Shown piece after piece: positions 1-64,000 of a stretch of DNA of 64,000 nucleotides. This DNA comes from Phalacrocorax aristotelis (Eukaryota > Chordata > Aves > Suliformes > Phalacrocoracidae): assembly GCF_949628215.1 (NCBI RefSeq), contig NC_134279.1:84501517-84565516 (forward strand). Reading direction: 5' to 3'. Within the stretch, counting starts at the first letter, position 1. Each line of letters opens with the position of its first letter. Below the pieces are notes generated by a model that was not told the origin of the DNA, did no database searches, and saw only the letters and a list, made by a program, of their open reading frames with translations. Both the position numbers and the translations under genes were made by a program.

Positions 1-1392
1 CTCTCCCTGAGATGTCCGCGTGTCCTCGTCCCCCGCTGGTGGTCCCACTGGACCCTTGGCCGCCACCACCAGCTGCAGAAGGTCCTGGATGTGGCGCAGT
101 GTCTCCGACTGCTCGGCAGTGAGGCAGGGTTGCCCATGCCAGGGGACCTCCAGTGCCCGCCCGGCCGGCTGCATCCCCAGACCGGGGCCCTGTGGGGTGG
201 GGGGCAGCGGCTCCCCAGACCCCTCCGGTCCTGCCAGGCCGTGCCCAGGCTCAGCAGCGCGTAGCTGGCTGCAGGTGCCGCGGGGGTCCGGATGGCTGAG
301 CGCAGCTGGTGCCTTCTCCGGTGTGGTGGTGGCAGAGCCGCGCCAGCCCGGCGCTGGTGGGATGGGGGCTGGTGGGGTGCAGCAGGGCCCCCCCCAAGGT
401 GTGCCGCAGAGCTGGTGCTGGGGTGGTGGTGGGTCCTGCGGGGGGTTGCCCTGAGCTGGCTGGTGGAGGCCGTGGGTGTCCGTGGCAGGGACGGTCTGCT
501 GGCGGTGCAGCAAGGGCTGGGGCGGTGGGTGTCCGTGGGGCAGGCTCCGCTCTGAGTCGCTCCGTCCCAGCCCCCGCAGTTCGGTGGCTGGCCGGGGCTG
601 ACCACAGGGCACGGAGGCCGGGCGTGGGGGGGCCCCACGGCTCCCCCCAGGGTTTCTGCGGAGCCGGGCGCAGGCAGGGGGTGGCAGGCAGGGCTCTGGG
701 GTGCAGCTCCGCACCGGCGAGGTGCAGTGGGCAGCAGGGCACCCAGCTGTGCCCGGATAAGGGGGACAGGGATCCCTGGGCGGTGGCGGTGGCACACGGC
801 ACACCGCGGCGTGCTGGGGGAGGGCTGTGGCATGGTCATGCACAGGAACGCTGCTGGGTGCCCGTGGGGGCACAGCCCAGCTGGCGCCGGTGGGCACGGC
901 CCGCCTTGGGCACCAGGCACTCCCCACGGTGGCAGGCAGCACCACGTCCACGGCCACGTCACAGACGCTCTTGCTGTGGGGCTGGCAGGCTGGAAAGGGC
1001 TTCTGGAGGCTGGGGGAGGTCTGGATGGCGGTGCTCATGCACACCTTCCTGGGCATGGGCAGCGTCAGCGAGCCCGGCTGGGCCTGGGGCCAGCTCCGCC
1101 GTGAGGCACAGAGAGCCGCCCGCTCAGGGGTGTCCCTGGGGGGCGGTGAGGCACGTGGGGTGTTGGGGCCGGGGGTGGCCGTGGGCTCCGGGGTGGGGCT
1201 GGCTGCCTGCCCCGCGCTGCCCTCCACCAGGTCCTTGAAGCGGACCTGCTGCGTGCGGTTGCGCCGGCGCTTGAGGCGGCTCTCGATGTCGGGCGAGTCG
1301 CGGTTGAGCAGCACCGAGCGCACCGTCATGGCTTTCTCCTGGCCGCCCTCGCCGGCGGGGGCCGGGCCGGGAAGGGGCTCTCGGCTGACCAT
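1..1392 (-). CDS. INSYN2-family protein (inhibitory synaptic factor 2-like), 5' coding part; 3' end off window
   Basis: A single minus-strand frame is open from the ATG at 1392 to base 1 (464 codons, no stop). An in-frame stop lies two codons upstream of the ATG, which fixes the start. The N-terminus MVSRE resembles MVSK of INSYN2A (FAM196A). Two family blocks are visible: a basic RRRNRTQQVRFKDL at residues 42-55 (INSYN2A: KKRNKALQVRFKDI) and PMPRKV followed by STAIQTSPSLQK at 111-130 (INSYN2A: STGVQTSPDLKK). The middle is proline- and cysteine-rich and probably disordered. Residues about 424-446 (LTAEQSETLRHIQDLL onward) look like the start of the C-terminal helical part, which lies outside the window. 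Known INSYN2 proteins are linked to the inhibitory postsynaptic density; function here is inferred. INSYN2A and INSYN2B are nested antisense in DOCK1 and DOCK2, and a DOCK gene lies on the opposite strand here. Where this coding exon ends is unknown. It could be a divergent INSYN2A/B ortholog rather than a third paralog. Confidence 0.8.
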   Translation of the reverse strand, partial: MVSREPLPGPAPAGEGGQEKAMTVRSVLLNRDSPDIESRLKRRRNRTQQVRFKDLVEGSAGQAASPTPEPTATPGPNTPRASPPPRDTPERAALCASRRSWPQAQPGSLTLPMPRKVCMSTAIQTSPSLQKPFPACQPHSKSVCDVAVDVVLPATVGSAWCPRRAVPTGASWAVPPRAPSSVPVHDHATALPQHAAVCRVPPPPPRDPCPPYPGTAGCPAAHCTSPVRSCTPEPCLPPPACARLRRNPGGSRGAPPRPASVPCGQPRPATELRGLGRSDSERSLPHGHPPPQPLLHRQQTVPATDTHGLHQPAQGNPPQDPPPPQHQLCGTPWGGPCCTPPAPIPPAPGWRGSATTTPEKAPAALSHPDPRGTCSQLRAAEPGHGLAGPEGSGEPLPPTPQGPGLGMQPAGRALEVPWHGQPCLTAEQSETLRHIQDLLQLVVAAKGPVGPPAGDEDTRTSQGE

Positions 1393-2270
1393 GGCTCAGG
1401 GCCCCGTGGCCGCTGCTCTGCAGCAGGGTGCTGCAGCGGGGCGTGGGAGGCCGAGCACCGGTGGCCAGAGCCCTGGGCTTCGCCCTTCCCCGGAGCTGCC
1501 CGGGGCAGTGGGCGGCCTCATCCCATGCCACCGCGGAGAGGCGATGCTGCGTGGCAGGCGGGCGAGGGGCTGCTGGGCATGCTGCCTGTTGCCTGGCCCT
1601 ACAGCCCCCGGCACACCACGCCGGCAGCTCTGCCCGTCGCCATTCCTCCTCCACGGTGCCAGCAGCCCATGGTCCTGCCGCTGTCTGCCCTGGCTCAGTG
1701 TGGCCCGTAGCGGGCTGCCGGGGGTGCCAGGTGTGGGCCGCCCCTGCCCATGGCTCCTGGGCTCCCAGACCTGTGGGGACAGAAAGAGATGGGTGAGCCC
1801 TGGCCCCGCCGCCACAGCCCCCCGAGGACGGGTGCATCCCCGCACGCCGCGCTGCCCCGTGGAGCTGCTGGCCTCTGCCCACCTCTGCGCGCTCCCTCCG
1901 AGCCCCGCCATAACAAAACGCAAAGAGACAAGCTTTGATCTCCGGCGCTGCCTCTTCAGCACAAAGAGAGAGGGAAAAAAAAGAAACCCCTTTAGCATAA
2001 ACACGTTACAAGTTCACAGCTCAAATCATGCAGAAGCGGCTGTTAAAAATAGCTCTGCCTCACTGGGGCTGGTGCCTCATGTTCGCGGGGTGCTGGAGCA
2101 GGAGGGCAGGCGCAGGGCAGGCATGGGGGGCTGCTGCGTGTGGGCACGGGGCAGAGCTGGGCTGGGCACGAGGGGTCCTGCGTGGGATGGATGGATGTGG
2201 GGCACCCACTGTATGCGGGGCACTGGCTCTGCGTGGGGCTGGATAAGGTGCGGGGTGCCCAACCGGTGTG

Positions 2271-2507
2271 GGGCATGGCTGGAGTGGGCGCAGGGGACCC
2301 GTCCTGAGTGGGGCATGGCTGGAGTGGGCGCAGGGGACCTGTCCTGAGTGGGGCATGGCTGGAGTGGGTGCAGGGGACCTGTCCTGAGTGGGGCATGGAT
2401 GGAGTGGGCACAGGGGACCCGTCCTGAGTGAGGCATGGCTGGAGTAGGTACAGGGGACCTGTCCTGAGTGGGGCATGGCTGGAGTGGGCGCAGGAGACCC
2501 GTCCTGT
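2271..2507. repeat. minisatellite, 40-bp period, about 6 copies
   Basis: The unit containing GGAGTGGGCGCAGGGGACC recurs at 2281, 2321, 2361, 2401, 2441 and 2481, an exact 40-base spacing with only point differences and no indels. Minus-strand open frames through it (about 2043-2876) are by-products of the repeat. Confidence 0.95.
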
Positions 2508-5500: not shown

Positions 5501-6139
5501 GCTGTCGGGAGGACAGCGCTGAGAGACGAGGTGCCGTAAAGCTGGAGGCCCTCCAAGGTCCCAAACCCGCAGGAGCCCCTTTCCAGGGTCTGGTCCACCA
5601 GCAGCCCAGGGCTGCAGTAGCTCCTCTCTCCTGGGGGACAACTGGGACTGAGGACTGGTGGGGGGATGGCTGAAGGAGATCTGGCCCAGCTACCGTGTCA
5701 TGGCTGATGCTCGTCCTCAGGCGCACTGTGCAGGAGGCTCTCAGGAGACCCCTGCTAGTGATCGGGAGCAAGGAGCCCTGCCCACGGGCTCCTGCCTGCC
5801 CTGCCAGCGCTCAGCCGGGGAGCAGGGCTGTGCAACAGCCTGAGGCTGAAGCACAAGGTGGGGGGCTGAGCCCTGGTGCTCTGCCCTTGCGTGCCCTGCA
5901 GGGTTCTGCGCCTGAGGGACAGGGGACACCACGGTCCTCCCCGGGGTGCACCGGTGGAAAGCGGCCTCGGGAGAGCCCGAGCACATAGGACAGGGCAGCG
6001 GCAGAGCCCTGGCGCAGGGCATGGCACCACCAGTCCGAGGCCAGCGGCGGGGGAACAGGCTTGGAGCTCGACTCGCAACAGCTGAAGGATGGCAGCATGT
6101 ACCAGCCACGCCAGTCAGCACAGGGCCACGGAGAACACG

Positions 6140-6345
6140 GCTCATCAAACCGATTTGCTGTCTGTTTTGATGAGGTTCCAATTTTGGTTGATGAAGGTAA
6201 AAGCCTCGATGGAGCAGACTTGGATTTCTGAGAGGCATTTGACATTTTGACGAAGAAAGCAGAATAATACGGAAGCAATGTGGCACAGATTAAATGGATT
6301 AAGAACTGGCTAACCAGCATGTCTCAAGACATCACCATCCAGCGA
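6140..6345 (+). mobile_element. degenerate CR1 LINE fragment (RT part)
   Basis: The stretch contains recognisable but decayed CR1 reverse-transcriptase coding sequence: a 'TTTTGATGAAGG..' block, a 'GAGGCATTTGACATT' block corresponding to the SKAFD-type motif, then 'ATTAAATGGATTAAGAACTGGCTAACC', the usual IKWIKNWL segment. It carries stops and is an old relic. Confidence 0.6.
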
Positions 6346-10570: not shown

Positions 10571-10606
10571 CCATACTATTATATAATTATAATAATTATA
10601 ATTCAT
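10571..10606. repeat. AT-rich simple repeat (ATT/AAT type)
   Basis: About 35 bases composed almost only of A and T, with irregular TATAATTATAAT units, in otherwise mixed sequence. Confidence 0.85.
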
Positions 10607-45301: not shown

Positions 45302-48300
45302 ATGGCGGCGCTGGCGCGGTGGGTGAGGGTGCCGCTGCGGCCGGGCGCGGCGCGTTGGTGCCGGGCGCTGTGTGGGGCCGCCGAGGCGCCCCCAGCCCCG
45401 CCGCCGCCTCCTTCTCCTCCTCATCCTCCTCCTCCTCCCTCCTCCGCTGGGGGCCGGGCACTGGCGGCGGCGCTGGGCGCCGGCGCGGCGGCGCTGCTGC
45501 TGCTGTGGGCCCGGGAGGGCGAGGGCCGCCGGCCCGCGCTGCCCGCCCTGCGCGCTGCCGTGCCCGCCCCGCCGCCGCCCGCCTCGCCCCGCGCCGCCTT
45601 CAACTTCATCGCCGACGTGGTGGAGAAGACGGCGCCCGCGCTGGTCTACGTGGAGATCGTGGGCAGGTACCGGCACCGGGCGGCCGCGCCCGGCCCGGCC
45701 CGCAGCCCCCCGCGGAGCCGGCTTCCCCGCTGCCCGACGGGGCAGTTTCTCTCTTGACCCCGGACCGGTTCCCTCCCGTCCTGCCCTTCCGAGAAGGGTC
45801 TGGCCCCGTCCTCCCCGCACCCCGCAGGGAGGGATCCCCCGACTCTCCCCATCCGCCCCCCGCCCCGGGCAGCCTGCACCGGGCACGGCATCCCGGCGGG
45901 GTCCCGCAAGTGCCGCGGGTGGATGGATCCGTCCCCTCGCCCTGCTGCTTGCGCACGCAGCCCGCCTTCGCCACTGGGACACGCTGCTGCCACATGGCCG
46001 CCTTCATGTCCTCCAGGACCGTTTCTGCAAAGCTGCCTTCCAGGCAGCGGCCGCAGGCTGTCCTGTGGCGCAGGATCGCTCTGCCCCGGGAGCAGGGCTC
46101 TGCGTTTACCTTTGAACTCCATAACGCTCTTGCCAGCCTGTGTCTCCAGCCTGTCAAAGCACCTCCAAATAGTAGCTTTGCCCTTCAGCTTGTTGACCGC
46201 TCCATCCAGTGTGGTGTCACCTGTGGGCTTGCTGAGTACGTGCAGTGCCCCATCCTCCGGTTTATGACTGTGAAAGGTGTTAGATGGCATTGGTCCTTCT
46301 TTCAGTTCCTGAGGTGTGGTGTTAGTAGATGACCAGCAGCTGGACTAGGACCGTGGTGGTCCAGGCAGTTTTCCATTCACCTTATCTGATTATAAGCCTG
46401 CATGTCACCCGTGTGGCTAGAGGGTACCACGGGAGACCATGCCGAAAGCCTTCTTAAGGTGAACTGTATCTGCTGCTCACCCCTTACCTGCAACAGCCAC
46501 TCATCTGTTTACAGAAGCCAGCCAGGTTTGTCAAGCATGATTTGTTGTTGGGAAGTCTGTGCTGGATGTTTCCACTCCCCTTCTTGTGTGAGATGTGCCG
46601 GGAAGTGTTTCTGGGAGTGTTTGCTCCATCACTTTCCCAGAGGCAGGAGGTGAAGCTGGCGGACCTACCGTTTTCAGGACATTTTTTCTTGGCGATTTTG
46701 CAGGCTGGTCTGATGTTTGCCTATTTCCAGCCATCAGGAGCCCCCCTTTACCACTGTGACATTTGAGCACCCACAGGGACATCAGCCACCCCCTTCGTGT
46801 GTATCCGGTCTGGTGCTGTGGACTTGTGCACGTCAAGTTGGCTTCTGCGATCCCTCCCTTTGTTGTCTTCTGTGCAGTGCTGCGTTCCCATAGGCTCTGC
46901 CTCTGGGCACAGGGGTTTGGGAAGCCAAAGGAACAAGGCAAAAAGGCACGACCTCACCCCTTTCTGTGTCCTGTGTCACTAGGTCCCTTGCCTCGCTCAG
47001 CACCAGGCCTTTCCACAGAGGTGATTTATGTCCCCCATGGGGACCAGGTACTGCAATCATGAGTCGTCTTCTAGCTGTCTATAGATGTACCATCACCTCC
47101 CAAAAGTTTATTACCTGCTCCGAGGCAAGGCTGTGTGCATTCAGACTGCTTCTTTGTGCAGATCACAACCCTTTCTACTTACCTCCTTGCTGCTTTCCCC
47201 AAAGAGCCTGCGCCATCTGTTGCAGCTCTCCACTCGTGTAAGCTCCCACTCCGTCTCTGTAGCCCCAGCAGGGTGGTACCTTTGCAGTTGTGCGTGGACT
47301 CCGGCTTCTTCCTGCTTGTTGTGTGCATGCTTGTCCAGACTCTCGGGATGGGGACCTTTCATGGGGAAGTGAAGGAGTCTTCCCCCATTGTGCTGTTGCC
47401 CAGATATCATCACTATTCCCCACTTCTACCCAGTCTGCCTGGCCTGTGCCTGCCCTCCCCTGCCACTGTGCCCCCCCCAGCTCCCGAGTCCCCACCGGTC
47501 CCATGAGGGTCCCTGCCACCCCTCCCTTACCTGTGCCCACCTTGCAGGCATCCCTTTTCAGGACGTGATGTGCCCATCTCTAATGGCTCGGGTTTCCTGG
47601 TGTCTCCGGACGGGCTCATTGTGACCAACGCGCACGTGGTGGCGAACCGACGGCGCGTGCGGGTGAAGCTGGCCAGTGGCGAGCAGTATGATGCTGTGGT
47701 GCAGGATGTGGACCAGGTTGCAGACATCGCTACCATCAAGATCAAGCCTAAGGTGTGCATCATGGTTGTGGTGATGCTCCCTTTGTTTCTTCCCATCTCC
47801 TCAGTGACCTCCTCTCTTCCAGCACCCGCTGCCCACCCTACCCCTTGGACGCTCCTCTGAGGTGCGGCAGGGAGAGTTCGTGGTGGCCATGGGCAGCCCC
47901 TTTGCCCTGCAGAACACCATCACCTCTGGCATTGTCAGCTCTGCCCAGCGGGGCAGCCGGGAGCTGGGCCTGACCACCTCTGACATGGAGTACATCCAGA
48001 CCGATGCTGCTATCGATGTAAGAGGAGCTTGCAGTGCACAGCGGGTTGGCACCTCATCGCGGCTGCCCTCTTTGGGGAGGGGGGAACTGAGGAAGGGCTG
48101 TGGGTGCCCGGAGGTCAGAGGAGGCTGAACACAGAGCACTGGGAGATGAAGGGATTCTGGCCAGTGACCCGGGCATTGGCTGCATTTCTCGGCCTGACCC
48201 TGTTCTCTAAACTCTGCCTCCCTGCCGCGGGTCCTGCTGTGTGAGGATGTCGCTTTCATGGCCTGTTTACTGCTCTCTCCTCTGCTGCAGTTTGGGAACT

Positions 48301-51300
48301 CCGGGGGCCCCCTTGTCAACTTGGTAAGTTCTGCTTGCACCCTTGCTGGCTGGGCCAGAGAGGTGACGTGTGCCCTGTGGTCTGTGTCCCCTGGGGCTCG
48401 GTGCCCCTCGGTGGGAGCGCTTGTGGGTGCTACAGCTGCTGGGAGGGAGGAACTGTTTGCATGCACCAGGCTCCTTGTGAGGAGGAGCAGGGGATCAGCC
48501 CAGTGTAGGAGCCCTGTGCAGCATCTGTTTCAGGGAGCCTGAGCCAATGGGACTCTAGCGTGATGGAGCTGAGCCCTACTCTGGTGAGGCTGGCATGGCT
48601 GATGCTGGCAGGGCTGAGGGAGGGGCTGCTTTGGGTGCGGCCTGTGGAACCGGTCCCTGCCCAGCCTCAGCAGGGTCAGGCAGGCTCCAGAAGAAGCAGG
48701 CTGGGAAGGGATGGGTACACAGGCTTGCACGGTAGTTCTCCTCCTCTCCACGACGATGCAGGCTGGATAGCACAGTCCCCTTTCCCCTGCAGGATGGCGA
48801 AGTGATTGGGGTGAACACTATGAAGGTGACATCAGGCATATCTTTTGCCATCCCCTCAGACCGGCTGCGGAAGTTCCTGCAAAAGGAGGAGCAGCGCAAA
48901 AGTGAGTTGGGTGCATCTCTGCTTGGTTATTGGGGGAAGGAGGCCAGAAGGAGGAGGTTGAAAGAGGGAAGCTCTGGCAGAGCGGGGCTCTGGGCCCTTC
49001 TTCTGAGAGAAAGGCAAGCACAGCAGGAGGAAGAGTGTTTGGGGGTAAGAAGATTTTCCCATCTGGCATGAAACTCCCCTCTGCCATGGGAAAGCTGTGC
49101 TGCTACTTCCATGCCCACATGGGCCTAACAAACTGCAAGGAGGATGCTGACCTGTATCTACTGCAGGTAAAGACTTTTAAAGTGTCCTAAGTAGCTTGCA
49201 CTTAAGTCCCCAGGAGTACGTGAGGATTTTTTTGTTTTTTCATTGCTACTTTTCAGTAGCTCTCAGCATATGGGAAAATCAGTGGACCATTATTTAGTGT
49301 TCAAAAATGGGAAAGGATGATCTGGAAACTGGGTGCTACTTAGCATTGTGTGTACTAATGGAAACGCAGGTGCAGGATTCAGCTGTATCATAGAGGACAG
49401 GTAGTTAATTTAGTCCTGTAGAACATTGCCTCTTTTTGTTCCTTTGTGTTTGTGATAGTTTATTTCATGCAGACTCTTGCTTTCTGGTTCTCGTGTTGAC
49501 ACTGTGGAGTCATAGTCTCAGTCAAAAAAATTACAGCTGAAACCAGGAAAGCAAAGTATGCAATACCTATAAAGCTCTAACTGGTAAATGGAACTTAAAT
49601 AAGCTGTTGGTAGGGAACTAGAATGACTCCCGCTGCACGGTGTCCGCCTTGAGGCATGAGGCTTTGTGACTCGGCTGGTTCAGCCCAGCGCCATTTCGAG
49701 TGCATATCTGTTTTTAGCCTTGTCATTCAATGTCCTTTCCTTTGACAGGCTCTTGGTTTGGCAATACAGAGACAAAGCGCCGTTACATAGGGGTAATGAT
49801 GCTGACTCTTACACCCAGGTATGTGTTCTAAGGCCGGGGGCCAACAGGCCAGTCTTATTGGGGCATGGTGACTCTGATGGGATCTTCTGAACTAACTGAG
49901 AGTGCCTGTTTTCGAGAGGATTGTCTTCACAGCTTAAGCATTCACTGTCATATCTCTTTGTGCCTCTGTGTTTAGACTCTAGGCTGCATCAGAGGTAAAT
50001 TAGAATCTTGCAAGTTTCTATGCTTGTAGCAGAATCTGCAAGCAGATAAAAAGTCCCTGAACCTCCCCTCCATAGTGCCAGATCGGTCTGTAATCATCAT
50101 TGAGGGGAATTCAATGAAGAGCCCTTGCAACACAGCACGAAGGAAAAGTCACCAGAAACATTGCGTAATTAATAGATATGCAATGTGCCGACTGAAAGCT
50201 GTGATGAAACAGCTGGGCAAGTTGTACTCTCTGGGAGGAGGGATCCACCAGGTGAATTGCTGTGGTGCAGAAACAGTTCTAGAATACGGGACTTTGAGAA
50301 TAAGAAATGGCAAGTTTGCCTGCAGTAGTTGACTGAGGGAGTACGTAAACAGGTAGGAGAGCAGGCTGCGCTGGTACACACAGCGTGGCTGCCACCCAGA
50401 GGGTGGTGTGAGGCTCCTGGGTTTCAGGAGGGAGGCTGGATGCTGCCTCTGGGAAGAAGTTGTCATGGTGCTGACCAGTACAGCACTGGCAGGTGGGAAG
50501 AGGATGACTTCTGGTGGGTCTGAGACTCTTCACCCTCATGGCTATGACTTGGGAAGGGCATTGTGTTACCTCTGTATCTCCAGGAACGCTCTGGTCAGCA
50601 AAGAGGACTGTAGGCAGACAACCTGCTTGGGTCTGATAGAAGATCACCTGCTGCCCTTGCCTCAGCTTGTCCCCAGGACATGCCTGTGGCCTTGGCAGCC
50701 AACCAAGCACTCTGAGACAGGTCCCCTGCAGGTAGTGGCAGCTGTGCCCTGCTGAGGGCTGGACAGCCCTGGTCAGGCCTGCACGGAGCTCCGCTCAGGG
50801 CTGCAAGCCCTGGGACGGAATTGCTCAGGAGCTATACCTGAACGCCTTCCAGCAGCCTTATAGATGCATCAAGTGCATGTGTTAGGAGAGTGCTGGACCT
50901 GCATTCTTACCTCTGAGAGCAGTCCGCCTTTTCAAGGACAGAGTGCCAGCTCTGGTTCCTTGGATCTTGCAGCCATCTTTCAGGAGTGCTTTAACTCACT
51001 CAGCTTACTAGTGAGGTTGGTGGTTGTAGCGTCCTTGGCAGAAACAGCTTTCAGGGCTGTGTTCTCCCCTTGCTGAAGCTCTCGTGGCTCTTGTGCGTTG
51101 GTTGGGTTTGCAAGCTGCCTACACATCTGGATGCCACAAGCAGCCTCTGGGGTTGCTGCCTGGGACACAAACAGAGGAGCAGATGCTCTGTGCCTTCCGA
51201 GATTCGGGACAGCGGGGTGGGCAGGGGAGTGCTGTCGGCGTTGCTGACATGCCCGGTAGATGGTGCTGATACTCGACAAAACCTGTGGGCTGTGGGAGCC

Positions 51301-54300
51301 CAACCTCCTCCTGCTTCACTGGACAGGCATGTAGGCTGAAGTCTGTCAGGGAAGAAGCACGAAATGCTGAGGGCATGGCTCCTGGGAAGCGGGTCCAGCG
51401 TCAGCACAGACAGTCTGGCAGCTGGTCCTGGGAAACCATCTGACTGCAAGGCTTGTTTGTGCCCAGTTGCTGGGAAGAGCTCCCAACAAGGGATTGCTCC
51501 CCTTGGAATCGGGTGATTACACTGTCTGAACATGCTCGTTTGAAAGGCCAGAAACTTGCTTGAGCACAGGAAGGAGAAGCTCCATGTTGGGTACAAGCTT
51601 CTCGGCATCCTGGTCCTGCTGCACAGGTTGCCTGGCAGGCAGGAGCTTCCTGAGGCACCAGGCCTTTGATCTGCTGCCCAAAGGGAACAGAGGAGTGCCA
51701 ATGGCTTTGAGCTCAGCTGTGGTGGAGTTCCTAGGTACCCTCACCTTGGCCACGGGCAGAGACAGGGCCCTGGCTAGCACAGCCCTCTGCAGTTGTCTTA
51801 CAGCATGGAGTAAGTAGGGACTGAGCAAAGGACTTTGAAAACAGCAAAGGAAAGAGAGGCTGATTAGTGGCAACAGGTTCTACGTGAGACTGCTGCTGGG
51901 GTGTGTTACTGGTCAGGGTTGTTACTAGAGGGAAGCCCAAAACATGGGTTGGTTCTTCATGCAGTGTGTGATAGAACTTGTTGATGTTGTAGGGTTCAAA
52001 AGAGCAACTAGAAAACTTTACAGAAGAAAAATCTTGCTGGCTTTCAAATGCCAAGATGCAGTGTTACAGCTCAGGAGCTTCTTGAGCCAGGCAGCTGGAG
52101 GCCATAGGTGTCCGGGGAACTATCTCATCCACAGCTGGCATTGTAGGTGAAAGGGTGGTGGGGAAGATGGACCCTCATCTGACTGACCTGTGGCCTGGGT
52201 CTGGCCAGCATGGAGTCAGTTTCTTCATAGCAGCCCACGTGGTGCTGTCTGTTAGATCTGGGGCCAAAACTGTCGGTAACACGCAGATGTTTTAGCTGTT
52301 GCTGAACAGTGCTTACGCAGTGCTGAGGCCTGCCCTGTTTCTCACTTAGCACCTCCAGGGAGGAGGCTGGGAGGGGACGCAGCTGGGGCAGCTGACCCGA
52401 GCTGACCGTGCTGTATGGCGTCATGCTCGGCAATAAAGCTGGGGGGAGTTTTTCCAGGGTAGCCATTGCTCAGGGATTGGCTGGGCATCAGTCTGCTGGT
52501 GGGAGGTGGTCAGTGAGTGCCTCGCGTCATTTGCCCTTTTTTTTTTTTTGCCTTTTTTTTTTCTGTAACTTTCTTTTTTTGCCTGTTAAACTATCTTTAT
52601 CTAGACCCACAAGTTTTCTGGCTTTTGCCGTTCAAATTCTTTCCCCCATCCTGCTGGGGGAGTGACGGAGCAACTGGGTGGGGACTTACCTGCCAGCCAG
52701 GGTCTACAACCCACCACAAGTGGGCGCAGCCACTCGGTGCAATGTAGCCTAAAATCACACAATCACACATTTACTGTGGTTGCGCAGAGACCCGCTTAAG
52801 GGCATGTGTTGTTCAGCTTTAGTGACTGAGGCGAAGAAGCAGGCTTGACTTAGTAAATGTGCAGAACGCATCAAAGCGGTAGTTTTACCAGTAGTGCCCA
52901 GTCATAGGACAAGAGGCAACGGGCACAAACTGAAGCACATGATATTCCATCTGAACACAAGAAATCACTTGTTTACTGTGAGGAGGGTGGTAAAGCCTGG
53001 CACAGGTTGCTTGGAGAGGTCAGAGAGTCTCTAACCTTGGGGATACTCAAAACTTGACTGGACGCAGTCCTGGGCAACCTGCTCTGACTGAGCCTGCTTG
53101 AGCAGGGCGATTGGGCTAGATGATCTCAAAAGGTCCCTTCCAACCTCAACCACGCTGTGATCCTGTGAAATCAAGAAGGGGTGGCAGCTTGCAAAGGTCT
53201 GTGAAACACTACAGTAGAGTCCAGCAAGTGCCAGGTGGGGAGCGATAGCTGACTGAAAGGTACCTGATAAGGAGCAAGGAGCTGGGCAGAGAGACCATGA
53301 GAATTTCTGGGGCTGCAGTGAATCAGAGCTGATGCACCGTGTTTGGGGGAAGAATGCTGGTTACATGATGGACTGTCCCTCTGCTCTGGTGGGATCCAGC
53401 TGGAGCACTATTCAGTTGTGGACGCTTTCAGCAGGGGTGAGGCGCAGTTGGAGAGAGTCCAAAGAGGAGCAGTGAGAGGTGCAGAATCTAAGCTAGGTTT
53501 AGAAAACCTAATCTGTGGGAAGACTGGAGGAACTGGGATTGTTTAGTCTACAGACTCTGGAGGAGAGATGTGGGTATAGCTCTGCTTGACACATCTGGCA
53601 AAAAGAGGGGCATAGCTTTTGTTCTGTGTTCTACCTGCCAAAGGCAGAGAAGTGAAACTGCAGCAGGGAAGGGTTAGATCTGACGCCAGAGGGCTCGTCT
53701 GACACGGGGCTGCTCAGACAGGGGAAGTGCATCACCAACAACTGTGATCCAGCTGGCAACTGCTCTCCCAGTTTCCACCTCTCCCTGGCAGTTAGGACTT
53801 TTGTCCTCTAGTTTTTGACAGGAAGACGGTGGTGTTTGGGTGCCCCTGGAGTTTGCAGCTGGTCACTTGTGCTTAGCAGGGTACAGGAGAAGAGGTTCTG
53901 TGCCACGGTCTCCAAGCCTGTGCAGCCATGGTGGAGTGGGAGCCCTGCTCTGCCTCCCAGCTCTTTACCATGATGCTGGTTTTTCTCTCTGCAGCATCCT
54001 GGCTGAGCTGAAGCTGCGTGACCCCAGCTTCCCCGATGTCTCCTATGGAGTGCTAATCCACAAGGTGATCATCGGCTCCCCGGCCCATCAGTAAGTGCTG
54101 CCCTTGAGTGGGTGATGTGGGAGAGCAACTATGCAGGACGGGATGCATTTAGCTCCAAGTGTTTTGCTCCAGAGCAGCGGAGCTTGGGCCCTGCAGCCAT
54201 CAGCCTGCAGGAGGAAACAGACTTGGTGTCCTGTTGGCCAAGGTACCTTTGTGGCCGGGGGAATGCCTGGTGCAGCAGCCCAAGCCTCCTGTGGTGCCCA

Positions 54301-54544
54301 GCTCCCCTTCCTTCTGGGAAGACGAAGCTGAGCGTCTGCTTCATCTGCTGTGCGTTCCTGTTGTCGTTCTCCCCGCAGGGCAGGGATGAAGGCAGGTGAC
54401 GTCGTGCTGGAGATCAACGGGCAGGCATCGCGCCGCGCGGAGGACGTGTACGAGGCAGTACGGACGCAGCAGAGCCTGGCCTTGCTGGTGCGGCGTGGCT
54501 ATGACACTTTGCTGGTGAGCGTCGTCCCCGAGGTCACGGAGTAG
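45302..54544 (+). CDS. HTRA2: HTRA2/Omi mitochondrial serine protease, 412 aa
   Basis: Eight exons in phase: 45302-45666, 47548-47752, 47823-48017, 48291-48323, 48793-48901, 49749-49818, 53995-54090, 54379-54544. The N-terminus has an arginine-bearing presequence, a proline run (about 30-46) and a membrane anchor (about 53-69). The mature end would be AVPA at residues 86-89, an IAP-binding motif (human AVPS), followed by [20 protein letters not shown]. The catalytic triad is visible: His in VTNAHVV, Asp in VADIATIKI and Ser in [10 protein letters not shown]. The PDZ domain includes [15 protein letters not shown] and ends in VVPEVTE. It is a trimeric quality-control protease of the intermembrane space that releases caspases from IAP inhibition when it leaves mitochondria. 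It is somewhat shorter than human (458 aa), the difference being in the poorly conserved presequence. Intron 6 (4.2 kb) and intron 1 hold CR1 debris. Confidence 0.97.
45930..46810 (-). mobile_element. degenerate CR1 LINE in HTRA2 intron 1
   Basis: On the minus strand the RT C-terminal part is readable across frames: [12 protein letters not shown] and [16 protein letters not shown], then [16 protein letters not shown], matching the CR1 'DRLEEWA..MKFN' and 'MSQQCALVAK' segments. Further up, the plus strand reads TCCATCACTTTCCCAGAGGC and TTTGCCTATTTCCAGCCATC, the usual antisense of the upstream RT part. Frameshifts and stops abound. Confidence 0.7.
52529..52582. repeat. poly-T-rich low-complexity tract
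   Basis: Three long T runs interrupted by GCC and CTGTAACTTTC lie in HTRA2 intron 6. Confidence 0.9.
52880..53170 (+). mobile_element. CR1 LINE 3' end
   Basis: Shows GTGCCCAGTCATAGGACAAG, AGGCAACGGGCACAAACTGA, TTGGGCTAGATGATCTCAAA and GGTCCCTTCCAACCTCAACC, ending near CTGTGATCCTGTG, the canonical CR1 3' terminus. Confidence 0.95.
53360..53710 (+). mobile_element. older CR1 LINE fragment
   Basis: Decayed CR1 segments in order: CAGCTGGAGCACTATTCAGT, GAGAGAGTCCAAAGAGGAGC, ACTGGGATTGTTTAGTCTAC and GAAACTGCAGCAGGGAAGGG. More diverged than the neighbouring copy at 52880. Confidence 0.75.
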
Positions 54545-54736
54545 CAGAGCTGTTGCACAGGCTGCTGCGGGCGCTGGCTGGCGGCGCGGGCCGAGAGCCA
54601 AGGACACGGGACTGAGCTGTGTCTGTGTGCTGGTCAGGGAGAGACTGAGCTTGTGAGGGGCTGGAAGGGGCCAGGCAGAGGGGCCCGGCCCAGTGCTTGG
54701 GTGGACTCATGGTGTGACCGTTCCCCTCTGTACTCA

Positions 54737-54742
54737 AATAAA
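54737..54742 (+). terminator. poly(A) signal AATAAA of HTRA2
   Basis: AATAAA sits 193 bases after the HTRA2 stop, followed by a GT-rich stretch. Confidence 0.85.
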
Positions 54743-54759
54743 GCACTTTTCTAGGGACT

Positions 54760-56674: not shown

Positions 56675-56680
56675 TTTATA
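56675..56680 (-). terminator. candidate variant poly(A) signal TATAAA of LOXL3
   Basis: On the minus strand TATAAA occurs about 600 bases past the LOXL3 stop, next to T-rich sequence. No AATAAA in sense orientation was seen nearer the stop, so this is the best candidate for the end of the 3' UTR. Confidence 0.4.
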
Positions 56681-57279
56681 GAGAAAATAAAATTACAACT
56701 AAGAGATGGGTGTGGGAGCTGCTGCCGGGCAGCTGGAGGCAGTGCTGCCAGGGCAGGGGCAGCCACACCGTCCCCTGCGGGTAAGGGGCTCCTGGGGGCT
56801 CAGCCGGTGCTGTGCAGGGGCGAGTCCCTGTGTAGGCGGTGGGTCCTGGGGCAGGCCAGCTGAGGGCAGAGCCCTAGGGAGGGCTCTGGGGCTGAGAGGA
56901 ACCAGGGCAGGATGGGGGAGCAGGAGGTGGGGTGCAGCTGGGACGGCAGGGACTGGGAGCAGAGGGGGCCATGGTGGGGGTACAGGACCTCCCAGACCGT
57001 ACCCATGTGCCGCAGCCCGGGGGCTGTGGGCACAGAGTCTTCTGGCCAGTGGTTGGGCTGGTGGCCCCAGGCTGGGAGGTTCAGGTGTGCAGTGCCTCCA
57101 GCACCAGCTCCCCAAGGTGGGGAAGGGCAGCTGGTGACAGCGAGAGTCCTGGGCAGTCCCCAGCCGGGCACGATGGCGGCGGTGCCAAGCGTGAGGCTTC
57201 CCCGCTGGCCCCCCAGCAGCTTCCTCCCACCTGTGCATGGTGAGGGAGGGAGATGCCTGTCTCCCCAGGGGCTGGGGCC

Positions 57280-60200
57280 CTATGAGATCTGGTTGTTGAG
57301 CTGACCTGGGTACTGCTCAAACCGCTTGTTGGCCTCCTCACTGAGTGCATCACCTGGGCAGGCAGAGGGCAAGAGCTGTCGGCTCTGTCGCTGGTCGAGG
57401 TATGTTGCCTGCACCCCCAGTCCCTCCACTCCCACCGCAGCTGCCCCCGGGACCCCAGACCCAGCCTCCCCACGCCAGCCTGGCCATCCTGCCCCAATCC
57501 CTGCTGCTTCCTGCAGCCCCCTTGTTGCCCTCCCCCTGGGCCACCCCTGCCAGGACACCCCCTGCCCTGGTGTGCCCTTGCCCCCCATGCTGTGTTCCCA
57601 GAGCTGTTACCGATGTGGCAGCTGTGCACCCAGATGCGGTGCCCGTCGTACTTGCAGTTGCATTTCATGGCATTGTTGGTGAAGTCGCTCTCTGCCACCT
57701 CAAAGTTGGGGTTGATCACGACCTGTGGGGCACTGACAGTGAGGGTTGCAGCCCCCTGCCCCACACACAGCGGTGCTGCAGCCCCACACTGTTTCACCTT
57801 GGCCTTGCTGGCCTCAGCAGAGCTGCTGCCTGCAGCATGGCCCCCAGCACCTCAGCCCTGGCAGGACTTGTCTCCCCATCTGCAGCAGGATGTGCTGGTG
57901 GCTGTTGCTGTGGCAGGGCGGCCCTGTCACTGAGCTCTGAGTGCTCATGAGCAGTGCTGCTCAGAGCAGGAAAACCCCAGCTGAAGCACACCTGAGCAGT
58001 TCCTGCACGAGCCCTGCACATCTCTGGGCACAAAGACAGGCACTGTCCCACACCAGCACACACCCTGCCAGCCCCACCATGCTCCAGCCTGCTCAGAGGG
58101 CAGGGAAGAGAGGCTGGGTGACTGGGGTGCATGGGGAGCTGGGGGTGCAGGGGTGGAGGCTGGGGGTGCACGTGGGAGGGTGGACCGAAGGGCTGGGGGC
58201 AGCTCAGCTGCAGCACCTGCAGGATGTAGTTGCCTGGCTTGACATCAGTGATGTCGATCCACTGGCAGTCGATGTCGTGCCGGTACAGGTCCCAGCAGCC
58301 CACAGTGATGCCCTGCTCCCCAAAGTTGGCACACTCGTACCGCTTGGCCACGTCTGCTGGCAGGAAAAGAGCGTGGCTTGTCCCTGCTACAGCCCTCTGC
58401 TCGGCCCCCACACCATGCCCCAGCCTGGCCCCAGCACGTGCAGTGGCTGGGGACATCGGCAGGGACAGTGCCGCAAAGCCTCACAGCACCCACCTTCCTC
58501 GCACTCAGTGTCCTCGAGGCAGAAGCTGGCCTTGTGTCCCTCCGCCACCTTAGTGCCATTGGGGGTCAGGATGTCGTAATGGGTGAAGATATCCATGCTG
58601 TGGTAGTGCCTGCAAGAGGGAGCCCGCAGCACCCCGCTGCACCAGTGCCCAGACTCTGGGGAGCTCGGGGGATGCTCGGGGCAGAGGAGGAGACCCACGG
58701 AGCAGACAGGAGGCTAGCCCTGCCCTGTGGCAGGCCTCCCGCTGCCTGGCCAGCCCCTCGCTGCTGGGGAAGGTCCCACAGCCCCTGCGCTGAGGCCGCA
58801 GTGCTGCGAGGTCAGGCAGAGCTCGGTCTTGCCCTGGGAAGGGAGACGGCTGTCCCACCAGATGGCCCAGGCAAGCAGGGGGCTGCACTGCAGGGCGCAG
58901 CCCCTGCACCCCCAGGGCCCCCAGCCCCAACACCGCTCATTTAGAGACAGCCCTGAGCCAAAGCAGGGAAAACTGGACACCAGGCAGCAGGAGGTGCCTC
59001 ACCCAGCACCACCCTCACCCAGCCCCCACCAGCAGCACCATGACCCTCTCCCCACACTGACTCCCCCCCGGACGAGGCGGTTCCCCTGCCTGCAGGCCTG
59101 TCCCTGCCTGCACTGCGCACACACCGGTGGCACTCGTGCCAGACCCAGGAGTGCCGTCCGGCCTTGGGGCGGAAGTCAGCACGGCCGTTGTTGTGGATCT
59201 GGGAGGAGAAGCGGAGCAGGCGCCGGTGCCCATAGGGCCAGTTGGCCAGGCGGGCCGAGCTGGAGAGGCAGTTCTCCTCGGCGGCGCAGTACAGCATGTG
59301 CAGTGGACGGTCCTCAATGTACGCTGTCTCCTGCACCAGCGGGGCGTGCAGCAGCAGGTCGGAGGCGGCTGGGGAGCAGGCGGCTGATCAGGGACTGACG
59401 GCCACCCCGCTGCTTGGCGGGCAGCAGGGACGGGGCAAGCGCCCAGTGCAGGCAGGGCTGAGCCAGCAGGGGGACGCATGCCCTCCCCATCAGCTGGGCA
59501 CAGGCTGACCCTGCAGCCCCATCATTTGCAAGCCCCATTGCCTGCAGCCCTATTGCTCACAGCCCCTTTATCTGAAGCCCCTGGCCCTACAGCACCATTG
59601 CCTGCAGACCCCACTGCCCACAGTCCCCTCTGCCCGCAGCCCCCGCTGCCCGCAGCCATCACGGCCTGCAGCCCCCATCACCCACAGCCCCCATTGCCCA
59701 AAGGCCCCACCACCGCTCACTCTCAGAGCAGATGACGCCTGCGGCGAAGCGGGTGCCCGTGTTCTTGCAGTTCAGGCTGGCGCTGTGGTGCTGGCAGTGG
59801 CTCAGGGACATCTCATGGCCGGCGCACTTCACCCCGCTGAGCACCATCTCTGTCACGTTGCTGGCATCCCAGTACCACGTCTCCTGGGGAGGAGGTGAGA
59901 CAGACTGGGTGGCAGGGCTGGCTACTGTGGGTGACACGGCTCGCACACACCCAGGCTGCAGCCAGCACCTAGCCATGCCGCAGCGCTGCCCACGTACCCA
60001 GGCTGCCCGCAAGGGTCCCATCCCACAGCACGGAGCGGCCGCATCCCTTCGCCCCCCTACAGCCGTCAGGGAAGCTCCGGTGCCTGTGCTCGCTGGGGTG
60101 TTACCAAGGGCCTCCCCGCCGGCACCTACCGTCACTGCGTGCAGGGAGTAGCCCAGGCCAAGCTGGCGACAGGCCACCATCGCTTCCTTGGTGGTCCAGC

Positions 60201-62965
60201 CATCGCTGCACACCGTGCCCCACTTACTGCCTCGCTTCACCTCCACGCGGCCCTCAAACGCTGTCCTCCCACCGGCTAGGCGGATCTGTGGGGAAGCCCT
60301 GGGGCCGTGAGCGGGCATCCCATGCCGTGCTGCCTCCCACCCCATCCCCATCCCATTCCTGCCCCTGTCCCTGTCCCCGCGGAGCAGTGGTGGTGGCGGC
60401 TTGCTGCTCTGGCCAAGTTGGCGCTGGCACCTACTTGTAAGCCATGGTTAGCGAATCCCAGACCCAGCTGGCGACAGGCCACCATCGCCTCCAGCGTACC
60501 CCAGCCTTCGCCGCAGACCAGACCCCAGCGGGGCTGGTCCCCGTTGCCAGTCCCCACCGCCACCTCGACCCGCCCCTCGAAGCGGCTCCGGCCCCCGCTC
60601 AGGCGAATCTGCAGAGAGAGGCAGTGGCAGCAGCATCATCACCATCACAAGTGATGCTCCCGCTGCGGGGGCTGCATGCCGTGGGACTGTCCCGCCCAGC
60701 CCATCCTGCAGCTGCTCTAGCTGCCCCGTCCCCAGTGCAGCCAGGGCAGGACCCACAGATGGGCCCTGGTCCAGGGGCTTTAGGGCACACAAGGAGGTGG
60801 CAGCCGGGAGCTGAGCAGAGCCAGGCACAGCTTTGGTCAGCAGGGGCCTCACCAAAAATGGTAGGTTTGGGGACAAGAAATTGCTTGTGAGTTGGGGAAC
60901 TGCCTCACCAAAGCAGGGAAAATGGTTCATTTTGAAATGGCATTCTCATTTCAGAAATGACAGTTATGAGTACGTTAAAAATTATTAAAAAGCCCAAAGT
61001 CGATGAAATGACAGGGCAGAGCAAACAGGAACACATGGCTCCATTTGCTTATTTCATCAGCAATAAAAAAAAAATCTCTTGGTTGGCCCACAGCGATTTT
61101 TTTTTCTGGTGCTTCTACTGGGGGCTGGCAGCAGGGAGGGCAGCAGGGAGAGCAGCAGGGAGCAGTTGCCCCACACCACCCCACACAGCGGGGCACCAAA
61201 GGGCACCCAGAGGCCCCCACAGCTTCCCTTCCACCCCTCTCCTCATAGGGGCAGTCTGAGATTCCCACTCACAAAATCCCCAAGCCCCCCAGGGCAGCCC
61301 TTGCCTCAGATCAGGGGAAAATGCGTGGGTTGCAATGGGACATGGAGGAGAATGAGAGATGATGGGCCATCCTACAGCGAGTCCCATGGGCCCTCCCCAA
61401 GCACCCCACTCTGTAGACCCTGATACTGGGAGCCGCCGGGCACCATGGCCCCGCAGATGTGGGCAGCCCCCCGCAGTGCGCACCAGGTTCTCGTAGCCCA
61501 TGTAGGGGATGTTGCAGCGGATGGCTGCATCCTCTGTGTGCTTGCAGTCCTCTTGTGTGATGTTCTTGAAGGGGCAGCTCCAAAGGGACTTCTCGGTGCC
61601 CAGGCACTGCACCTCGTTCATGTGGATGGGCCCCGTCCCTGCCGGGGGGACAGCAGGGCTCAGGGCCCAGAGGCACAGGGACAGCCATGGCCATCCTGTC
61701 ATCGTGGCTGCCCTTGCTCCTCAGTGTGCACCAAGGGAGCCTGGCACACTCCTGGCCCCCACGGCTGCTGCCCAGGGCAGCACAGCCGAGTGGCTGCAGT
61801 CACCTGGGGATGCTCAGGGCGAGTCCTGCACCGTGTGCGATCAGCAGACAGGTGCCCACAGAACAAGCCCAGCTGTGGCTCCCTCCAGCCCAGCAGAGCC
61901 TTGCGCCTGGACAAGTGCCTCATCCAGGTCTACGCCTGACTCCTCCGCCCTGGCACCCTCACCTTGGCCCATGCGTGCGCCGGTGAGGGCCTCCTTGGCG
62001 CTGCCGAAGCCCAGCTCACGGCACACCACGCTGGCTGACAGCAGGTTCCAGCGGTCGTCACAGATCGTGCCCCACTCGCTGTTCTTGAGCACCTCGACGC
62101 GGCCCTCGCCGACCTTTGCGCCACCCTTCAGCCGGATCCGCGGCTGCAGGGGAGCGGGGTCAGGCCACGGCTCGGGACAGCGCAGTACGGCGCAGTGCTG
62201 AGCGGCGTGGCGTGGCACAGCGCAGCATGGCATGGCACAGTGCGGCACGGCACAGTGCGGCACAGCGGCTGCTGGCCACGACTCCTGGGATGTGCAGGGA
62301 CAGGACACCGTCCCCACCGCCTGCTCCATGCGTTGATCACCCAGGGGCCCACACACCCACTCTCAGGTGCAGCCCAGGGGACAGAGCACTGCAGTGTCCA
62401 GCTGTGGGCCACCACAGGACTCAGCCCCCTCCCTACAGGGCTCACCTGGCCCTGCTGCTGTTGGCGCTGCTTCTTCTTGTGGGCATTGCCAGTGGCAAAG
62501 AGGGGCCCAGGCACGCAGCTGACGACAGCGGGCATGCCAGCCCCGCAGGCGGCTGAGGCATTGCCCCGGTAGAACTCGAAGGTGCACATGGAGAGGTGCA
62601 CCTCCGTCCCCGTGCAGGACACAGAGTGCAGGCGGTAGTTGAGCTGCTGCCGCTCTGAGAAGAGCCTGCAAGGAGAGAGGAGCCCTGAGACACAACTGGC
62701 ACAGCCAGCCGGCAGTGGACGTGTCAACAGCCACGCTGCCTGTCCGTGCCCCGTGCAGTGTCCCCCAGGGCGAGACGTGTGGTGACTGTAGGGTGCCCGC
62801 CCCTCGCTGGCTGCCTGCCCCACGTCCCCAGCAGCACAGGGAGATGCATGGCTCCAGCAGCACTGAGCGGGGCTCCTGGCACTCAGGCTCTCCACTGGAG
62901 CCATTTACCTCTTCTTGGACCCTATGTCCTCCCTGCGCTTTTGTTTAGGCTGAGATTTGGCCTGC
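57280..62965 (-). CDS. LOXL3: LOXL3 lysyl oxidase-like 3, C-terminal part from SRCR2 onward (5' end off window)
   Basis: Minus-strand exons: 62909-62965 (tentative), 62446-62665, 61963-62143, 61484-61638, 60435-60608 and 60130-60285 (alternative pair), 59721-59883, 59125-59368, 58494-58609, 58217-58353, 57611-57722, 57280-57353. They encode the end of SRCR2 plus a KKKQRQQQQ linker, SRCR3 ([20 protein letters not shown] to [11 protein letters not shown]), SRCR4 ([12 protein letters not shown] to [12 protein letters not shown]) and the full amine-oxidase domain. The copper site [14 protein letters not shown] has the three histidines, and the LTQ lysine region [17 protein letters not shown] is present. 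The end GQLNNQIS resembles human GQTSNQII. The secreted enzyme oxidises lysines in collagen and elastin. It is tail to tail with HTRA2, as in mammals. The signal peptide and SRCR1 lie beyond 64000. Confidence 0.95.
59510..59705. repeat. low-complexity CAGCCCC-type degenerate repeat
   Basis: Irregular units of CAGCCCCATTGCCTG / CACAGCCCC recur roughly every 15-20 bases within a LOXL3 intron. Confidence 0.7.
60130..60285 (-). CDS. LOXL3: LOXL3 alternative SRCR4 first-half exon, copy B
   Basis: 52 codons, phase 0 at both ends, flanked by CACAG and GTAGGTGCC. It encodes [16 protein letters not shown], then [20 protein letters not shown] and GYSLHAVT. It is homologous to the exon at 60435-60608, and either can join the next exon (ETWYWD). 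The matching phases and shared downstream partner suggest mutually exclusive use. If both were included, the SRCR4 first half would be duplicated. Confidence 0.85.
60435..60608 (-). CDS. LOXL3: LOXL3 alternative SRCR4 first-half exon, copy A
   Basis: 58 codons, phase 0 at both ends, flanked by TGCAG and GTAGGTGCC. It encodes [16 protein letters not shown], then [20 protein letters not shown] and GFANHGLQ. This is the version matching human LOXL3 ([20 protein letters not shown] ending ANHGLQ). Confidence 0.9.
62175..62272. repeat. short tandem repeat, GGCACAGTGC / GGCACGGCAC type
   Basis: A run of about ten imperfect 10-base units in a LOXL3 intron, next to the start of an SRCR3 exon. Confidence 0.85.
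62909..62965 (-). CDS. LOXL3: tentative short basic LOXL3 exon
   Basis: The reading [18 protein letters not shown](R) is framed by TTTTCCAG and AG/GTAAAT and exits in the phase needed by the next exon, whose [10 protein letters not shown] corresponds to human LLAQRQQHSF. The acceptor could be at 62965 or 62961. I recall no close human counterpart; position fits the variable loop of SRCR2. It is lysine/arginine-rich with a KRR-spacer-KKR pattern. Confidence 0.5.
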
Positions 62966-63780
62966 CTGGAAAACAGAAAACAACCGTCAAGGAGCCCAGG
63001 GCCTCAGGCTGTCACCTCCGCTGGCTGCAGTGACACGGGGACCACAGCCTGCCCCAGCTTTCACTGAAGACTGAACTGGGAACACTGGGCTCCCAGGGAG
63101 ACTCATGCACGTCCCCTTTGTGCACGCAAGGGTGCAACGGCATCATCTGCTGCCAGCAATGTGACACAACTGCCCTCCGCAGCAATGATGCAGTTTCCTG
63201 CCCACATCCCATGAGGAAACTGTGCCGGATGCAGCAACATCCCCTGCTGCCTTGTCACACAGCAGAAGATCAAACACCACTGGCAATGATTTGATCTGTC
63301 AGGTCCAAGCAAGGTGTGCCCATGTCCTTGTCCAGACACTAGACAAGGGAGCAAGACACCCAGCAAGCACAGGACCAAGCAAGCAGCAGAGGCAGCGAGT
63401 GCTCTCCCCAGTGCCATGGGGCACAGTGAGACTAGCTGCAGGCTTGAAAGGACCCACTGCCAGCAAGGGGAGCTCCCTGGGCACATGCTGAGTGGTGTGA
63501 GGAAGAGGAGGCTGCCCAGGGCCCGGCATACAAGTGACGTAGGTATGGTCCCAACAAGCACAAATGCTTTGCTTCACTCGGGGAGGAAAATGCTGAGCAG
63601 GGCAAAAATCCCAGGGACCACAAGGAGTGAAGTGTGGAGTGCCCCAAAACAGGGCAGGGGACTGACACCCCTGCTAGGGACAAGGCAAAACCAAGCCTGG
63701 CAACTGACCCCACTGGCCGGTGGCAGGTTCGTGTCAGCCTGTGCAGACCAGCAAGCCCCAGGACACAGCACAGGGCTGCC
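62966..63780. other. LOXL3 intron, nothing recognised
   Basis: No SRCR1/SRCR2 exon is visible between the tentative basic exon and the CR1 at the right edge, so the remaining 5' exons must lie beyond the window. Confidence 0.55.
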
Positions 63781-63799
63781 AGGAACCAAGATTCAAACA

Positions 63800-64000
63800 G
63801 CTGGACAGAGGGCATCGGTGCCTGTTCACACTCATGAAACCGCACCTCGATCCTGCACCCAGTTCTGGGCCCCCAGTACGAGAAAGACGTCAGCTGAGCA
63901 GTGCGGGCTCCGGGGAGGGCCACTGAGCCAGTCTGGGCTGGAGGAGAGACAGGGCATAGGGCTGCTCCAGCCGGGGGCTGAGATGCCTTCAGGGGCCTCT
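63800..64000 (+). mobile_element. CR1 LINE fragment, running off window
   Basis: Contains CATGAAACCGCACCTCGATC, CACCCAGTTCTGGGCCCCCA, GTACGAGAAAGACGTCAGCT and GAGGGCCACTGAG, the HLEYCVQFWAPQYKKD region of CR1. Confidence 0.85.

Follow-up and report, generated by a model that had tools for sequence, protein, structure and literature searches.

DOCKx, INSYN2C and BNIP3x beside LOXL3 near a contig end in Phalacrocorax aristotelis, a probable fourth block from the early vertebrate genome duplications

The stretch of Phalacrocorax aristotelis DNA analysed here (the window) comprises 64,000 nucleotides (C4:84501517-84565516) and ends 199 kb short of the end of contig C4 (84,764,361 bases), within a searched genome of 1,278,995,914 bases and 352 contigs. 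It is GC-rich (46-70% GC per 4 kb) and holds all or part of three genes, here called DOCKx, INSYN2C and BNIP3x, that are new members of known families; the usual gene lists give DOCK-A three members and INSYN2 two. A preliminary description had placed DOCK-A-like, INSYN2-like and BNIP3-like genes beside AUP1-HTRA2-LOXL3, and all of these were located in the window by profile, protein and tblastn searches. The genome searches score the best candidates only, so that a gene not listed among the matches is not thereby proven absent. The features are as follows, in window coordinates unless prefixed by a contig.

1..1392, minus strand: INSYN2C, a third INSYN2/FAM196 gene, 5' part of the first coding exon, a large one with its start codon (ATG) at 1392 (PF15265 genome search, translation, flanks, alignment with INSYN2A and INSYN2B)
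Outside the window, minus strand: remainder of INSYN2C, the first exon reaching C4:84501373 and two coding exons near C4:84496124-84496198 and C4:84491521-84491721
15946-16041, 16353-16448, 17765-17845, plus strand: DOCKx TPR-region exons (first two from PF23554, third from a protein search; flanks)
17985-18086, 18282-18347, 19236-19376, 20741-20827, 21377-21517, 21823-21864, 22125-22214, 22305-22424, 22978-23067, plus strand: DOCKx, end of the TPR region and first part of the DHR-2 guanine nucleotide exchange factor (GEF) module (protein and profile searches, flanks; ends approximate to some bases)
23193-23294, 24253-24396, 24581-24661, 24760-24846, 25101-25190, 26470-26646, 26794-26877, 27000-27137, plus strand: DOCKx, remaining exons of the DHR-2 module (ends approximate to some bases)
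28568..29523, plus strand: putative C-terminal proline-rich DOCKx exons, ending in a 23-residue stretch (picked by eye from three-frame translation and flanks)
32075-32209, 31653-31745, 31358-31507, 30983-31027, minus strand: BNIP3x, respectively the exon with SWVEL and the short linear motif (SLiM), the BH3-position exon (assigned by eye), the transmembrane exon and the last exon (IYIGKRLAASSANPL-stop) (PF06553, translations, flanks)
36563-43744, minus strand: AUP1 exons (tblastn with a protein bait; eight ordered pieces, weakest E 0.039)
45302..54541, plus strand: HTRA2 exons, eight pieces, with the Met at 45302 chosen by eye and the first matched piece at 45599 (tblastn with a protein bait)
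57618..62901, minus strand: LOXL3, lysyl oxidase exons at 57618-59360 and SRCR exons upstream (PF01186 genome search, SRCR matches)

DOCKx, first picked up with protein baits, has 31 located exons, 20 of them within the window (15946-27137), and spans at least C4:84453131-84528653 (window position 27137), or 75.5 kb. All 17 peptides between 17765 and 27128 are in frame and, judged by eye, are preceded by AG and followed by GT within ~15 bases; joined, they score above the Pfam cut-offs, with 192.1 bits for TPR_DOCK and 63.1, 50.2 and 81.4 bits for lobes A, B and C of DHR-2. The DOCK_N region is represented by six PF16172 matches in profile order at C4:84453131-84459271, the first lying 48 kb upstream of the window, and five of the six are over the cut-off alone or with their neighbours. 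Additional upstream exons occur at C4:84469460-84470560 (three), at 84485021-84485164 (one) and at ~84488.03 kb (one). Ten of the upstream stretches are open, except that two matches end in a stop codon that falls on a splice donor, and the stops flagged in other DOCKx matches are, by eye, also located at donors. Compared with solved structures, the DHR-2 part scores 893.3 bits against human DOCK2, with which it has an 18-residue segment in common, and 828.0 bits against DOCK5; the joined N-terminal and TPR pieces score 457.8 bits against the DOCK5 chain versus 258.8 bits against the DOCK2 chain, partly because the latter has unresolved stretches.

The codon constraint of the DHR-2 part of DOCKx is close to that of its paralogs. 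As synonymous divergence (dS, by the NG86 method) was saturated and undefined for all six DOCK pairs, codon positions were compared in place of dN/dS, over 506 of 595 codons, with two of the 17 exon segments unmapped and the sequence stop-free by construction, the peptides having been chosen as open. The fractions differing at codon positions 1, 2 and 3 are 0.236-0.278, 0.154-0.180 and 0.551-0.624 between DOCKx and DOCK1, DOCK2 and DOCK5, and 0.197-0.260, 0.113-0.169 and 0.557-0.628 among the latter three. The GC content at third codon positions (GC3) of these 506 DOCKx codons is 0.85 versus 0.41-0.56 in DOCK1, DOCK2 and DOCK5 of the same genome, a value that fits the near-terminal, GC-rich location. 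Such a position and base composition may be the reason that genes of this kind escape assemblies and annotations.

A whole-genome search with PF15265 returned ten matches, all over the cut-off, on C12 (three), C8 (three) and C4 (four). Those on C4 belong to INSYN2C (minus strand, C4:84491521-84502821), whose large exon is open over 513 amino acids and whose joined protein scores 204.7 bits versus a FAM196 profile cut-off of 27. The gene has three matched coding exons, as do INSYN2A (C12) and INSYN2B (C8). Identity over the last 140 alignment columns is 53.5% between INSYN2A and INSYN2C, 48.0% between INSYN2B and INSYN2C and 45.3% between INSYN2A and INSYN2B, and over the whole alignment 35.5%, 29.7% and 29.4%, respectively; the three thus appear about equally distant, with no decisive kinship of INSYN2C to either.

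The corresponding search with PF06553 gave ten matches, eight of them over the cut-off, on C24 (three), C12 (three) and in the window (two), and two below it on C5. The two BNIP3x pieces exceed the cut-off of 26 bits alone (35.0 and 26.5 bits), and the four exons, all on the minus strand with usable splice borders, reach 91.7 bits when joined (E 5.9e-26). BNIP3x retains SWVEL and the transmembrane stretch SLLLSHVLTLGLG-IYIG, as well as VERMLLEAQLE and FIPSLLLSHVLTLGLG-IYIGKRL. We take SWVEL to be the LC3-binding motif and SH...GLGIYIG to be the transmembrane helix. The SLiM motif has been described in the BNIP3 family in passages of PMC5526904. The BH3-position exon (31653-31745) reads WACACRPQHPTPK and bears, by eye, a weak resemblance to the WSSRPEN exon of the bird paralogs. 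The same interval, reading DVPEEAERKERRLPASLGWACACRPQHPTPK, has what looks like a degenerate WSSRPEN-type segment, in a gene that keeps the motifs for SWVEL, the SLiM and the membrane helix. Positions 16478-17144 (in a DOCKx intron) and 34274-34945 (upstream of BNIP3x) are the two arms of an inverted 672-bp duplication with 93.3% identity. There are also GC-rich minisatellites at 2268-2506 and 32740-32914, with a 40-bp unit (six copies) and a 44-bp unit (four copies).

The apparently degenerate BH3-position exon of BNIP3x, together with the unalignable, proline-rich middle of INSYN2C, would be expected if the three genes were decaying relics without function. This is very unlikely, given that the DOCKx exons are open and under paralog-like codon constraint, and that in INSYN2C and BNIP3x the conserved ends and the order of the exons are kept and the splice borders are usable. 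Activity of all three products is predicted from sequence: DOCKx would most likely be an ELMO-partnered Rac-type GEF, to judge from its DHR-2 module and N-terminal exons; INSYN2C would, from its family, most likely be an inhibitory-synapse protein like its paralogs; and BNIP3x would most likely be an LC3-binding mitophagy receptor of the mitochondrial outer membrane with weakened BH3 function.

The company in which these genes are found could in principle also reflect an assembly artefact uniting unrelated contigs, and the GC-richness of the window, its closeness to the contig end and the inverted 672-bp duplication are features that such an error might have. It is nevertheless a very improbable explanation, in that DOCKx crosses the start of the window with its exons in profile order over 75.5 kb, and passages of Wotton 2008 (PMC2446394) likewise have chicken Aup1, Htra2 and Loxl3 on a contig attributed to chromosome 4, with genes of the NKX3.2 locus. 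The same passages assign chicken Dock2 to chromosome 13 and Loxl2 to chromosome 22, and make a case that there are four Lbx/Tlx paralogons.

Lysyl oxidase family genes gave 22 matches at five loci, on C24, C12, C4 (the window), C7 and C36. In the window gene, two SRCR domains are over the Pfam cut-off and one (the last, frame 62128-62901) is below it, and the sole solved-structure match is LOXL2 (E 6e-23); the name LOXL3 is drawn from the neighbouring HTRA2, of which one piece matches solved HTRA2 structures (phmmer, best E 5.2e-30), and AUP1. The genes on C24 and C12 were likewise named LOXL2 and LOXL4 from their neighbours and are best regarded as provisional assignments. In the same genome, C12 has DOCK1, INSYN2A, BNIP3 and LOXL4, C8 has DOCK2 and INSYN2B, C24 has DOCK5, BNIP3L and LOXL2, and C4 has DOCKx, INSYN2C, BNIP3x and LOXL3. 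TACC matches fall on C12 (three), C4 at 75.85 Mb (three), C24 (three) and C3 (one, weak). The result is a four-way parallel synteny in which DOCK genes lie on four contigs and INSYN2, BNIP3, LOXL and TACC genes on three each, C4 being included every time.

The INSYN2 genes are also nested in the DOCK genes in a common manner. INSYN2A (C12:20484674-20516119, minus strand) lies within DOCK1 between the exon matching TPR_DOCK 270-309 (20475745) and the 301-363 match (20559630), INSYN2B (C8:30044995-30053863, minus strand) within DOCK2 between exons 271-303 (30037314) and 301-334 (30084351), and INSYN2C (C4:84491521-84502908, minus strand) within DOCKx between the homologous exon at ~84488.03 kb and exon 302-333 (84517462). 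The profile missed the ~84488.03 kb exon, which the three paralog exons recovered when used as tblastn queries (E 2e-8 to 4e-6). All three hosts therefore have the antisense gene in the intron between the TPR_DOCK ~270-303 and ~301-334 exons, and the nesting probably arose before DOCK1, DOCK2 and DOCKx separated; a common antisense intron position is what one block duplication predicts. In DOCK5 (C24:4413172-4414083) only ~0.9 kb separates exon 259-303 from exon 300-334 and no INSYN2 match was found on C24, and a nested fourth copy has probably been lost from this gene.

As a protein query, DOCKx produced 76 matches on six contigs. Four loci are of the DOCK-A type (C4; C8:30.11-30.157 Mb; C12:20.61-20.67 Mb; C24:4.419-4.436 Mb), and more distant loci on C6 and C1 are taken as DOCK3/4. 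Identities of 87.3% and 88.8% to the human proteins identify the C8 and C24 loci as DOCK2 and DOCK5, respectively, and by exclusion the C12 locus is DOCK1. Over the DHR-2 part (bird DOCK2 columns 185-197 included), DOCKx is 72.7% identical to bird DOCK1, 69.9% to bird DOCK2 and 65.8% to bird DOCK5, the values among those three being 72.8, 75.3 and 64.8%. With 66-73% identity to the DOCK-A genes versus 44-48% to the putative DOCK3/4 loci, DOCKx groups with DOCK1, DOCK2 and DOCK5 and apart from the latter, both in identity and in the tree.

For the trees, human DOCK2 and DOCK5 sequences were drawn from solved-structure alignments; human DOCK1 was not found among the solved structures matched, and DOCK1 is represented by the bird alone. 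The maximum likelihood tree (567 of 595 columns, Q.insect+G4, bird DOCK2 columns 185-197 masked beforehand as spurious) joins DOCK1 and DOCK5 with support of 99.8/100 and bird and human DOCK2 with 100/99, and gives DOCKx its own branch at a node supported by 60.9/56. Ten topologies were compared by the approximately unbiased (AU) test, which rejects seven (p at most 0.0005); the three that survive all have the split (DOCKx,DOCK2)|(DOCK1,DOCK5) and differ in the root alone (0.19-0.64). Among the rejected placements are DOCKx inside DOCK2 (2e-5), inside DOCK5 (1.7e-131) and beside DOCK1 (at most 5e-4). The DOCK tree that the preliminary description had called for thus sets DOCKx outside the bird and human clades of both DOCK2 and DOCK5 and not beside DOCK1, and the duplication predates the bird-mammal split.

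The same split is found in the TPR region, for which five blocks (171 columns) were aligned by hand, the block ECRELLL... being omitted for indels; human DOCK2 covers 66 of the 171 positions (one block absent, one nearly so and two in part) and two outgroup rows cover none. With these columns added and no outgroup, (DOCKx,DOCK2)|(DOCK1,DOCK5) has an AU value of 0.999 and all five alternatives are rejected (AU p < 0.001; Shimodaira-Hasegawa (SH) p at most 0.03). Taken by themselves, the TPR blocks yield this split at 99.4/100, and the bird gene nearest to DOCKx is then DOCK2 (76.0% over the 171 columns).

The closeness of the DHR-2 part to human DOCK2 among solved structures might suggest that the window genes are DOCK2 (or DOCK1 or DOCK5), INSYN2A or INSYN2B, and BNIP3 or BNIP3L relocated beside LOXL3. 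This can practically be dismissed: the matches for all seven canonical genes, DOCK1, DOCK2, DOCK5, INSYN2A, INSYN2B, BNIP3 and BNIP3L, are on other contigs of the same genome, and the trees keep DOCKx out of DOCK2 and DOCK5. The preliminary description had held that genes inside the known clades, with the usual loci empty, would speak against its proposal of a fourth product of the early vertebrate duplications; the canonical loci are occupied on C12, C8 and C24, and the window genes are therefore extra paralogs rather than moved orthologs.

All four gene families point to one block duplication, as does the antisense nesting of the INSYN2 genes. We consider it highly probable (about 0.92) that the locus is the fourth block left when a DOCK-A/INSYN2-BNIP3-LOXL neighbourhood passed through the two genome duplications early in vertebrate history; the proposal is strongly supported by the four families, the nested INSYN2 genes and the TACC genes on C12, C4 and C24. 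The block before duplication would have comprised a DOCK-A gene with INSYN2 antisense in one intron, followed by BNIP3 and LOXL, and the two duplications would have turned it into the blocks on C12, C8, C24 and C4; the unrooted DOCK tree suggests that C4 pairs with C8 and C12 with C24. The C4 block would accordingly date from these two rounds, and DOCKx, INSYN2C and BNIP3x would have been lost from mammals. This last reading leans on the gene content of human 2p13 as we assume it to be.

Several observations weigh against an origin in the two genome duplications. No BNIP3 or LOXL member is among the matches listed for C8, and DOCK is therefore alone in being present in all four blocks. INSYN2C is fast-evolving, with good alignment at its ends alone, and so is BNIP3x, which over 95 aligned residues of its two best exons has 44.2% identity with bird BNIP3 and 47.4% with bird BNIP3L (bird BNIP3 and BNIP3L are 68.8% identical over 112 residues). 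The DOCK tree contains no fish, frog or reptile sequences and no human DOCK1, and its rootings are statistically equal, with AU values of 0.19 for DOCKx and DOCK2 paired, 0.64 for DOCKx outermost and 0.46 for DOCK2 outermost; the symmetrical tree expected from two rounds of duplication is thus allowed, not proved, and has the lowest score of the three rootings. Finally, the SH test, the more conservative of the two, leaves four of the seven AU-rejected topologies (DOCKx beside DOCK1 or DOCK5) unrejected (p 0.07-0.09).

The pairing of DOCKx with DOCK2 in the unrooted tree and the position of INSYN2C in the same intron would also suit a segmental copy of the DOCK2-INSYN2B block that was made later than the two genome duplications, though still ahead of the split between birds and mammals, and inserted next to LOXL3. 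A copy of the C8 block would not, however, bring BNIP3x or LOXL3 with it (no BNIP3 or LOX match is listed there), the LOXL and TACC genes have the common contig set C4, C12 and C24, and the divergence of DOCKx from DOCK2 resembles that of the other paralog pairs. Such an event is judged distinctly unlikely.

In a search of open-access PMC text, with genome annotations (e.g., 'DOCK2-like') outside its reach, no fourth DOCK-A gene or third INSYN2 gene was found to be named, and DOCK, LOXL3, BNIP3 and INSYN2 are absent from the main-text passages of two papers on missing or elusive avian genes (PMC12954441, PMC10208646). For the BNIP3 family, a third lineage, BNIP3L2, is reported in passages of PMC5526904 from ray-finned fishes and coelacanth only, and chicken, zebra finch, alligator and turtle are among the species tabulated by Wu et al.; PMC4201762 names zebrafish bnip4, and PMC6142374 treats the synteny of BNIP3 and BNIP3L.

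Under the fourth-block reading, it is likely that vertebrates originally had four Rac GEFs of the DOCK-A type, every one of which may have hosted an antisense INSYN2 gene, and that birds, and perhaps other sauropsids, retain the fourth pair and a third BNIP3 gene at a GC-rich chromosome end, where these are easily missed; birds would then run an extra Rac GEF, inhibitory-synapse protein and mitophagy receptor that mammals lost together. If so, the vertebrate DOCK-A and INSYN2 families would each be one member larger than the usual lists, a third BNIP3 lineage would not be restricted to fishes and coelacanth, a fourth DOCK member would join the four-way duplicated neighbourhood, and the nested DOCK/INSYN2 arrangement would predate the split of DOCK1, DOCK2 and DOCKx. 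Bird studies of Rac signalling, myoblast fusion, phagocytosis and mitophagy would have to count the three genes, because they might compensate for DOCK1, DOCK2 and DOCK5 or for BNIP3 and NIX.

The block compares with known systems at several levels. The LBX/TLX-LOXL paralogons of Wotton 2008 are four-way, like the present block, with Aup1-Htra2-Loxl3 on chicken chromosome 4; in the 12 of 13 mentions covered from that paper, Dock2 is named with the Tlx3 loci only, and its main text has no occurrence of the string 'bnip'. BNIP3x has SWVEL, the SLiM-like VERMLLEAQLE and the GLGIYIG transmembrane helix in common with BNIP3, BNIP3L (NIX), BNIP3L2 and zebrafish bnip4, and differs in a BH3 position that appears degenerate. 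INSYN2C has in common with INSYN2A and INSYN2B (FAM196A/B) the exon order, the QVRFKD and QTSP motifs, a C-terminal coiled-coil-like stretch, SVE.DF.QQE, a K.W-like end and the antisense nesting within a DOCK gene, whereas its middle is long, proline-rich and unalignable. DOCKx shares DHR-2 lobes A-C, the TPR region and the DOCK_N exons with the DOCK-A Rac GEFs DOCK1, DOCK2 and DOCK5, and the intron hosting an antisense INSYN2 with DOCK1 and DOCK2, but it stands apart from these three as a fourth lineage, its identity to each being 66-73% over the DHR-2 part.

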